Shown piece after piece: positions 11,939 to 27,988 of a stretch of 32,530 nucleotides of DNA (position 1 is its first letter; every line of letters begins with the position of its first letter). Source of the DNA: Ignavibacteriota bacterium (GTDB lineage: Bacteria; Bacteroidota; Ignavibacteria; Kapaibacteriales; UBA2268); NCBI GenBank assembly GCA_024636855.1, contig JAGXGG010000067.1, positions 1-32,530 on the forward strand, written 5' to 3'. The notes below the pieces were generated by a model. That model had not been told where the DNA came from. It saw only the letters and a list, made by a program, of their open reading frames with translations, and searched no databases. Both the position numbers and the translations under genes were made by a program.

Positions 11939-12010
11939 AGTGTGGTATATTAGGGGGGGGAGACGTATTTGACACATCTCTATAATTCTTAATTCAAATA
12001 ATCTGATGAA

Positions 12011-18815: not shown

Positions 18816-19991
18816 ATGATTAGAAAAGACGTAGTTATAATAGGTGGCGGCGCAGCTGGACTGCAATGTGGCATCGAAGCAGCAAAAGCTGGTCGGAACA
18901 CTATATTGATAGAACACAACCGAATGATAGGAACTAAGATACTTATCTCAGGTGGTGGTAGATGCAATTTCACTAATATCAATGCTGGACCTTCTAACTA
19001 CACTTCGTCCAATCCCCATTTTCATAAATCTGCTCTTTCACGTTATACTCCAAACGATTTCATAGATTTGGTGGAGCAATACAAGATTGACTACTACGAA
19101 AAGACTCTTGGGCAGCTATTTTGTAAGAATTCCTCGAGAGAAATAGTAGCTTTGCTCCAATCCGAAGCTGATAAATATGGATTAGAGATACAGACTAGCA
19201 CGAAAGTCGGTGATATAAAAAAGTCAGATGACGGGCGATATTTCGTACTTACTAATCAGGGTGATTTCAGCTGTGAGTCAGTTGTAATAGCTACCGGTGG
19301 GCTTTCATTTCCTAGCCGTGGAGCTACTGATTTCTCATACAGAATAGCCGAACAATTTGGCTTAAAATTAAACCCTCCTCGTCCTGGATTAGTACCATTA
19401 TTGTTAGACTATAACAAAAATCTTGACTTCAAATCGCTGCGTGGTATCTCATTTAATGCCGAAGTATATACAGATGATATTAGCTTCAAAGAGGCAGTGT
19501 TGTTCACTCACAAAGGTATGAGTGGTCCTGCTATATTACAAATATCGAATTACCTAAATGACAGTAAAGAATTCCATATACGATTAGAACCAGATTTAGA
19601 TTTACCTGCTTTCTTCACTAAGGAAAGACGCTCAGGTGTACTCATAAAGAATTTACTCTCCGAATTCTTGTCTTCCAGATTCGCTACAGAATGGGCAACA
19701 TATCACGGATTCGATTGCTCACCTAAGCAGTTAGACGACCCACAATTCGAGAGACTACTAGGATTGTTAGACAAATGGACTATAGCGATAACTGGTGACG
19801 AAGGATACAGCAAAGCAGAGATAACCCTAGGCGGAGTTCATCCAGATGAACTCTCATCGAAGACTATGGAAACTAGAAAGCACAAAGGGCTATATATAAT
19901 CGGTGAAGCAGTAGATGTGAACGGTTGGCTTGGCGGATATAATTTTGCTTGGGCTTGGGCTTCTGGCTGGGCAGCAGGGCAGTTTGTTTAG
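18816..19991 (+). CDS. BaiN/HI0933 family NAD(P)/FAD-dependent oxidoreductase
   Basis: 391 residues, a cytoplasmic flavoprotein of the HI0933/YhiN/BaiN family. The N-terminal Rossmann motif VVIIGGGAAGLQCGIEAAKA binds the FAD ADP moiety. Residues near 45 carry the family signature KILISGGGRCNFTN. About 155-170 is VIATGGLSFPSRGATDFSY, and the C-terminus has TLGGVHPDEL and GLYIIGEAVDVNGWLGGYNFAWAWASG, which closes over the flavin. The length is typical (about 390-420). The physiological substrate of most members is unknown; BaiN was linked to bile-acid dehydroxylation, which should not be assumed here. The gene follows the DUF1573 terminator by 22 bases and has no operon partner downstream on its strand. 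Confidence 0.9.
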   Translation: MIRKDVVIIGGGAAGLQCGIEAAKAGRNTILIEHNRMIGTKILISGGGRCNFTNINAGPSNYTSSNPHFHKSALSRYTPNDFIDLVEQYKIDYYEKTLGQLFCKNSSREIVALLQSEADKYGLEIQTSTKVGDIKKSDDGRYFVLTNQGDFSCESVVIATGGLSFPSRGATDFSYRIAEQFGLKLNPPRPGLVPLLLDYNKNLDFKSLRGISFNAEVYTDDISFKEAVLFTHKGMSGPAILQISNYLNDSKEFHIRLEPDLDLPAFFTKERRSGVLIKNLLSEFLSSRFATEWATYHGFDCSPKQLDDPQFERLLGLLDKWTIAITGDEGYSKAEITLGGVHPDELSSKTMETRKHKGLYIIGEAVDVNGWLGGYNFAWAWASGWAAGQFV

Positions 19992-20010
19992 GTTATGTAA
20001 CTAGTGTTAA

Positions 20011-20494
20011 TTAGTTTATATTCTTATTTAAATCGAAATCTGTAATATTATACTGCTTCATAAAAGCTCTGAATTGCTTTCTTATAGACAAATGTACAAA
20101 GTCAGATTGAGAGTATTCCTCTAGTGACAATAATAAAATTTTATATTCATTTGTCAGAATTTCAATTTTATCTTTACTTACTTTAATCCCAATTGGTAGA
20201 TTCTCTTTATTAAATTTAAAGGATTGTTCGACTTCAAAGCATTCAACTCCGTCATCGCTAAATACTAACTTCTCTTTTTTTTTCTCTTACCCTTTTATTA
20301 TTCTTGTTTATTCTTTTTGCGTTGACAATCATTAGTATTATCCATCCGAGTACATACCATTCAAAATTGTCATTCCTTCTATTCATCATAGCTAACATAA
20401 ACCCAGAAAAGACTGTAAAAACAGTAATAAGGATATTAGTTATTGACTCATTTTGATGCTCTTTTATCAACTCAGTCTTTAAAAACTCATTCAT
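20011..20494 (-). pseudogene. small two-helix membrane protein interrupted by a frameshift at an A9 tract
   Basis: The first frame (20494 to 20258, 78 codons) starts MNEFLKTELIKEHQNES and has two membrane segments (about 20-37 and 45-58) and a basic end NKNNKRVREKK. It then runs through nine A residues (minus strand, 20275-20283) into a short out-of-frame tail and a TAG. Removing one A, or shifting +1, continues directly into an 87-residue open frame (20274 to 20011) beginning EKLVFSDDGVECFEVEQSFK, with a protein-like composition and ending in TAA. The joined product would be about 160 residues: membrane hairpin plus a cytoplasmic domain. I do not recognise the family. It could be a decayed gene, a phase-variable tract, transcriptional slippage or a sequencing error. 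It lies 5 bases after a second disrupted small gene. Confidence 0.55.
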
Positions 20495-20499
20495 TCAGA

Positions 20500-20646
20500 T
20501 TACCCAACTTCAGCTTTCTGCTTCTTTAATGCTTGCCTAGTTACGTCCTCACCCCTTAGCAATGCCGCTGCATAGGTCATAGTAATTAACATAAATCCTC
20601 CTCAAAGTAGACCGGCTATTATCCATCCATTTTTTTCAAAATTCAT
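20500..20646 (-). pseudogene. small single-span membrane protein with an in-frame TGA at codon 15
   Basis: SD-like AAGGA precedes an ATG at 20646. The frame reads MNFEKNGWIIAGLL, TGA (20602-20604), GGFMLITMTYAAALLRGEDV, and a basic tail ending KKQKAEVG before a TAA at 20500. With the TGA read through (for example an original TGG, Trp) it would be a 48-residue protein with one membrane helix. TGA is an ordinary stop for neighbouring genes, so recoding is not expected. A second SD-like GAGGAGG directly overlaps the TGA and precedes an internal ATG at codon 19, which would give a 30-residue product. It sits immediately upstream of the frameshifted gene, suggesting a former two-gene operon. The family is not recognised. 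Confidence 0.45.
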
Positions 20647-20806
20647 ATTCTTGTTTCCTTTTGCGTTTTACTAACCAAACATAATGAAATCAATATTATA
20701 ATCGAAATCTTTTATTCTGATAACTCCAAATTTTGCTTTTTCTCCATAAGAGATAGGATTTAAACAACTTGAATCTTCATATAATCTTCAAATCTATAGT
20801 AATACC

Positions 20807-21358
20807 TCACTTCCCTTTCCATATAACATCTTCTACGCCTGTCAGATGATTCACGTAGCGGGCAGCTGCGAAGAAGTAATCTGATAGTCTATTCAGATAT
20901 TTAATTACTATTGTGTTTATTTCTTCTGCGTTAGCTAGTTCTACTGTTAGTCGCTCAGCTCGGCGGCAAACTGTACGTGCATTATGCAAGAATGCAGCTG
21001 AGTGATGCCCACCTGGTAGAATGAAATTCTTTAATGGCTCCAGGTCTTCGTCGTATCTGTCAATTGCATCTTCTAGTCGAGTTATTTCGGTTTCGCTGGT
21101 TCGTTCTATTGCTTGCGATTTGATGAATTGATCAATCGGTGTAGCTAGGTCAGCCCCTACGGTGAAGAGAATATTCATAATATGCTTTAATTCAGTTTTC
21201 ACGGGTTCTGGGCACTCGAATGAATATGCTAACCCCACTACTGTGTTCAGCTCATCTACTGTTCCGTATGCTTCTACTCTGAGTGCGGCTTTGCTAACTC
21301 TTTTACCATTAAAAAGTCCCGTAGTTCCATCATCGCCAGTTTTAGTATAAATCTTCAT
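20807..21358 (-). CDS. PduO-type cob(I)alamin adenosyltransferase
   Basis: 183 residues, the usual size of this family, which transfers the 5'-deoxyadenosyl group of ATP to cob(I)alamin to give coenzyme B12. The N-terminal signature KIYTKTGDDGTTGLFNGKRV with the following VEAYGTVDELN forms the ATP site. The helical bundle carries ILPGGHHSAAFLHNARTVCRRAERL and ends with YLNRLSDYFFAAARYVNHL, both typical. The cytoplasmic enzyme would serve salvage or de novo B12 use, for example by methylmalonyl-CoA mutase or ribonucleotide reductase, none of which is in the window. It is divergent from the ymdB-like gene with a 59-base gap. I see no cobalamin riboswitch in that gap. Confidence 0.92.
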   Translation of the reverse strand: MKIYTKTGDDGTTGLFNGKRVSKAALRVEAYGTVDELNTVVGLAYSFECPEPVKTELKHIMNILFTVGADLATPIDQFIKSQAIERTSETEITRLEDAIDRYDEDLEPLKNFILPGGHHSAAFLHNARTVCRRAERLTVELANAEEINTIVIKYLNRLSDYFFAAARYVNHLTGVEDVIWKGK

Positions 21359-27211: not shown

Positions 27212-27988
27212 CTATTCCTTATAGGGAATTTTTTCTAGTATATGATTAATAACTTCTAGCCTTGCTTCTGGCTTGTTGTTAGCATCTACTATTTTCCAAG
27301 GAGCATGATCTGTATCAGTCTTCTCAAACATTGTTTTCTTGTAAGTAGTATATTCATCCCATAGATTGCGCGAGTTCTCATCTACTTCTGTCAGCTTCCA
27401 TCTCTTTGATGGATTTTTCCTAATGTCCTCAAACCTTTGCCCTTGTTCTTCTTTGGTTATAGAGAAGTATATTTTGATGAGAAATGTGTCTGATTCTACT
27501 AGCATTTTCTCAAATTCGTTTACTTGCCCCATGAAGATTTCATACTCCTTGTCTGTGCAGAAGCCATTAACTGGTTCTACCACAGCTCTATTATACCAGC
27601 TTCTGTCAAAAAGTACCATCTCACCTGGTTTAGGCAATTTATTAATATATCTTTGGAAAAACCACTGTTTCCTTTCATCTTCAGTAGGTATATTCAAAGC
27701 AACTATTCTGAAGTGTCTAGGGTTTATGTGTTCTGTGACTCTCCTTATTGCACCGCCTTTACCGGCAGCATCTCGCCCTTCGAAAAGGATAACAATTTTC
27801 TTGTCATTCTTTATCACCCAATTTTGTAGTTTTATCATATCTTCTTGCTTCTCTTTGAAAGCAACTGAATATTTAACTTCTTCGAGTGATTTCTTCAAGT
27901 TGATTTTTTTTCTTCTCAGAAGTGACATCAAACCATCTTTAGAGTTTAATAATTCCACGTCTTCTTCTGTTAAATCTATTTTACTCAT
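27212..27988 (-). CDS. ppk2: polyphosphate kinase 2 (PPK2), tandem copy A
   Basis: 258 residues, one PPK2 domain. PPK2 enzymes reversibly transfer phosphate between polyphosphate and nucleotides. The Walker A motif FEGRDAAGKGGAIRR is at 70-83, the lid-like RHFRIVALNIPTEDERKQWF follows, and Walker B with the following loop VLFDRSWYNRAVVEP is at 125-139. An SD sequence (AGGAAAGG) precedes the ATG. It lies 13 bases after the stop of a second PPK2 gene, so the pair is one transcription unit arising from tandem duplication. It looks like a class I-type single-domain enzyme by motif, but nucleotide preference (ADP, GDP or AMP) cannot be read reliably from sequence alone. The 3' end faces the convergent methyltransferase. 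Confidence 0.92.
   Translation of the reverse strand: MSKIDLTEEDVELLNSKDGLMSLLRRKKINLKKSLEEVKYSVAFKEKQEDMIKLQNWVIKNDKKIVILFEGRDAAGKGGAIRRVTEHINPRHFRIVALNIPTEDERKQWFFQRYINKLPKPGEMVLFDRSWYNRAVVEPVNGFCTDKEYEIFMGQVNEFEKMLVESDTFLIKIYFSITKEEQGQRFEDIRKNPSKRWKLTEVDENSRNLWDEYTTYKKTMFEKTDTDHAPWKIVDANNKPEARLEVINHILEKIPYKE

Follow-up and report, generated by a model that had tools for sequence, protein, structure and literature searches.

A putative lineage-specific membrane protein gene interrupted at an A9 tract: a probable young frameshift at a variable spot

We describe a candidate membrane protein gene that is broken at a run of nine adenines, within a stretch of 32,530 bp (the window, by which we mean the whole of the DNA that was analysed). 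The gene lies between those of an HI0933-like FAD oxidoreductase and a cobalamin adenosyltransferase, next to the remnant of a second small membrane protein gene. The features of the locus, in order of their coordinates in the window, are as follows.

18816 to 19991, + strand: HI0933-like FAD oxidoreductase gene (PF03486), a conserved flank
20011 to 20274, - strand: continuing frame of the split gene, 87 codons and a TAA (20013-20011), one base over from the first frame
20258 to 20494, - strand: first frame of the split gene, ATG at 20494, 78 amino acids, stop at 20258
20275 to 20283, - strand: A9 tract, the site of the frame break, which reads T9 on the + strand
20500 to 20646, - strand: remnant of a gene for a small membrane protein; codon 15 is TGA (20604-20602), and 81 bp are lacking near 20536/20535 relative to three congeners
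20807 to 21358, - strand: cobalamin adenosyltransferase gene (PF01923), a conserved flank

Seventy codons lead from the ATG at 20494 to the A9 tract, and the first frame stops eight residues beyond it. The first-pass annotation had counted 73 codons before the tract, a figure that runs into the tract; its placement of the break at the A9 itself stands. After the tract, the third frame meets a stop after six residues, and the remaining frame continues for 87 codons, in which neither a second lesion nor a stop has been gathered. The T9 at 20275-20283 of the + strand is the sole run of nine in the window. The second frame comprises 91 codons when counted from 20286. None of its first 52 is an ATG, GTG or TTG, and this speaks against a pair of distinct genes. 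Because a usual start is missing near the beginning of the second half, and because both halves are open beyond chance, the evidence supports one interrupted membrane protein gene, apparently broken at the A9.

We quantified the openness of each frame against first-order Markov sequences matched in composition, 20,000 for each half. The 87-codon second frame stays open in a fraction of 1.5e-4 of these sequences and the 70-codon first frame in 7.5e-4, which bears out the earlier description of a membrane gene split at an A9 and continued by a one-base-shifted frame of 87 codons. Codon log-odds, trained on 21 genes of the window, average +0.071 in the second half and +0.073 in the first. True gene pieces of 80 codons have a mean of 0.169 and a 5th percentile of 0.040 (n = 109), and the 95th percentile of wrong-frame pieces is 0.043 (n = 545). 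Both halves are codon-like as well as open beyond chance, with scores near the low end of true genes. In the first half, one of the wrong frames reaches +0.070, and consequently the first half's codon score is weak when taken alone; its G+C content by codon position is also atypical. The second frame might belong to no gene at all, a reading in keeping with the failure to find homologues, with a regional G+C content of only 27-29% and with codon scores so close to the low end of real genes. We consider this very improbable, given the open-frame probability of the second half and a codon score that exceeds the 95th percentile of wrong frames.

The first half encodes a strong hydrophobic segment within residues 16-39, as well as a basic tail. 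A second, weaker hydrophobic segment lies at about residues 45-58 and is predicted as a helix only in a low-confidence model. The model of the read-through protein has two helices, four strands and a further helix at a mean pLDDT of 39, and the second half modelled alone has four strands and a helix at a mean pLDDT of 48; both values are too low for the folds to be trusted. A search of the PDB with the second-half model returned nothing at E <= 0.001, and a search of solved structures by protein sequence found no homologue. The joined protein has no match in Pfam, and searches of Pfam, NCBIfam and PHROGs gave nothing convincing for the split gene. We had presumed a resemblance to YcxB-like proteins (PF14317), which combine membrane helices with a small domain. 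This identity was dropped, since the joined protein has no Pfam match, the PF14317 profile finds zero members in this genome, and comparing profiles with three members, taken from the genomes of two relatives, gave a probability of 0.5%. As a separate observation, in another genome of this family a YcxB-like gene (L090, about 1800-2000, - strand) has an apparent in-frame TAA in its membrane part.

Protein searches of 40 relatives, 54 genomes of the family and 395 genomes of the phylum found no homologue of the split gene beyond chance-level matches, and the same was true of collections of genome contigs, viral contigs, plasmids and phages. The only good match was to the window itself. Weak matches appeared in 9 of the 40 relatives (the window's own genome included) at E values up to 1, the best foreign one at 0.003, and among the 54 family genomes in G044 and G017, also at 0.003; we take all of these to be chance. 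The unsplit homologue with which the first-pass annotation had proposed a comparison is thus absent from every set searched. With no relative found, neither an unsplit homologue nor a dN/dS ratio can be obtained. Its status as a gene rests on the open-frame statistics and codon scores, with no relative showing a whole version. Rfam returned nothing between 19900 and 21500. Scans for promoters and terminators yielded no more than shuffled sequences allow.

The two flanking genes are 93-96% identical in three congeners, and the interval between them (19992-20806) differs in length and content. Its length is 815 bp in the window; G003 has about 2.1 kb between the two genes, and G002 about 5.2 kb. 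In G001 the interval is broken by contig ends and comes to at least 2.8 kb. The intervals of the congeners hold a GNAT gene (assigned by PF13508 for the copy in G002) and a gene for a small membrane protein, together with further genes that vary from one congener to the next, several of them without known function. No trace of the split gene was seen in the same interval of the three congeners, two of which are spanned on one contig. On this comparison, the genus evidently has a variable spot between these two flanking genes.

The small membrane protein gene upstream of the split gene can be compared with its counterparts, whose frames are open in all three congeners (L050, L051 and L052). Codon 15 of the remnant is TGA in the window, TGG in G001 and G002, and TTT in G003, and the remnant has an 81-bp gap relative to all three. 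Judged from these lesions, the upstream gene is dead, independently of the split gene, which starts five bases past the remnant's stop. A dead neighbour shows the decay of the neighbour and not of the split gene, whose frame is broken at the A9 and which, unlike the gene upstream, has no homologue for comparison.

We also determined how A9 tracts are placed in the rest of the genome. Exact A9 or T9 tracts number 111 in 3.10 Mb, so that an A9 is itself not rare. We classed 100 of the 111, calling a tract inside a frame when an open frame of at least 40 codons lay on each side; 12 lie inside intact open frames, 2 split a frame and 86 do neither. Among 3,632 random positions at the same loci, 2,347 lie inside and 44 split a frame. 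Splits are in excess at tracts (2 of 14, compared with 44 of 2,391 random positions, P = 0.028), but the excess falls to 1 of 13 (P = 0.22) when the starting tract is removed; it is then not significant, and we do not rely on it. The second split is a T9 at 1502-1510 of locus L075 (G000:C13:34767-34775), in the gene that ends a row of outer-membrane barrel genes. There, the two frames run on into each other and a whole paralogue (PF13568) adjoins; the upstream half of this barrel gene has no Pfam match. The gene's closest congeneric relative (in G001, L164) is 47% identical and carries an in-frame TGA. The only other split among the 100 of 111 tracts classed thus also looks like decay. Within the window, an eight-T run at 27904-27911 sits in an intact frame (27212-27988, - strand), and long tracts are therefore tolerated in coding frames here. 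A G8 run at 11953-11960 is intergenic, and is unusual for a window of 34% G+C.

On balance, we favour a young frameshift in a decaying, lineage-specific accessory gene at a variable spot as the probable explanation. The gene would be an orphan lodged between the two conserved flanks, the genes for cobalamin adenosyltransferase and the HI0933-like oxidoreductase, and its product would be a protein of some 160 residues anchored in the membrane. A recent one-base change in the length of the A tract, which would code for a lysine-rich linker, would have broken it, and replication slippage is the presumed source of that change. Without correction, the ribosome would make a 78-residue membrane stub and probably little full-length protein, although slippage by RNA polymerase might still yield some full-length product. 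The break is likely to be recent because the downstream frame has gathered no stop. The dead upstream neighbour, the variable interval and the split at L075, where a relative is also broken, suggest decay. An undamaged downstream frame, for its part, also fits a corrected gene, a switching gene or a consensus error.

Homopolymers are a common site of consensus error, and the genome is a draft of 110 contigs; together with the undamaged downstream frame, these facts would be explained if the A9 were an error of assembly or consensus, or reflected the majority in a mixed population, and the real gene were whole. We regard this as unlikely, because the twelve other A9 or T9 tracts inside intact frames of the same assembly read through long frames unbroken and because its other split, at L075, affects a gene whose relative is broken too. 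It is improbable, likewise, that the gene is phase-variable, flickering on and off as replication slippage alters the tract. The tract does lie within a membrane protein gene, and a neighbouring length joins the frames, but with 12 of the 100 classed tracts inside intact open frames, nine adenines alone are not a switch here, and the tract is kept in no relative among the 40 relatives and 54 family genomes searched.

A further alternative is that the gene is expressed through slippage of RNA polymerase on the A9, a share of the transcripts being in frame, so that the full protein is made alongside the 78-residue stub. Genes of this kind are expected to have about nine A or T in a row where the frames meet, as this one does, and nine adenines match a slippage length published for bacteria in the available part of the source (PMC1088944), which upholds the earlier statement that the A9 is long enough for slippage. 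The same portion of that 108-genome survey reports that A/T runs are avoided from length nine in many bacteria, and that growth from A8 to A9 breaks genes that may still be expressed, termed 'pseudo pseudogenes' (Baranov et al. 2005, PMC1088944). The broken gene here could be one of them, and its downstream frame is undamaged. However, the two frames join only when the transcript has, on balance, one base fewer or two more, and a one-base gain leads to the stop after six residues. According to the accessible part of a transcriptome survey, insertions dominate at A/T runs, 80% of them are of a single base, and deletions are rare, with no case of a restored frame (PMC5574713). Moreover, conservation of the split and its tract, the other expected mark of a slippage gene, is shown by no homologue in the genomes and collections searched. 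We consequently think slippage expression quite unlikely, and we see a slim chance that the A9 is a working switch in an undescribed family, one that would set how much of the 78-residue stub is made relative to a full-length anchored protein bearing a cytosolic domain. The first-pass annotation had preferred phase variation or slippage expression to a dead gene; that preference is left unsupported, since the searches showed neither an intact relative nor one with a conserved split, the upstream gene is dead and the interval is variable.

Three described groups of genes resemble the present one in part, as far as the available portions of the sources describe them. It shares with the 'pseudo pseudogenes' a single interrupted gene, an A9 at the break and a change in tract length that would join the frames; it differs in that whole homologues exist for those genes, whereas none was found for this one, known from sequence alone (PMC1088944). 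Insect endosymbionts keep homopolymer frameshifts in conserved genes, and the Blochmannia examples are alike in their AT-rich genome, single A-tract frameshift and otherwise intact frame; the broken genes there are conserved, in contrast to an orphan beside a dead gene at a variable spot (PMC3017870). In the GeneTack survey of frame transitions, orphan singletons are expected to result from gene overlaps, sequencing errors or indel mutations (PMC3711429), and the present gene is likewise frameshifted and without a homologue; the overlap option is weakened here by the lack of a usual start early in the second frame.

If the favoured explanation of a decaying accessory gene is correct, the locus would be a small and fresh case of gene death at a homopolymer, affecting a lineage-specific gene that sits in a variable spot. 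If its product is nevertheless made, the locus would instead offer an orphan case for slippage-expressed genes and a warning against calling such frames dead.
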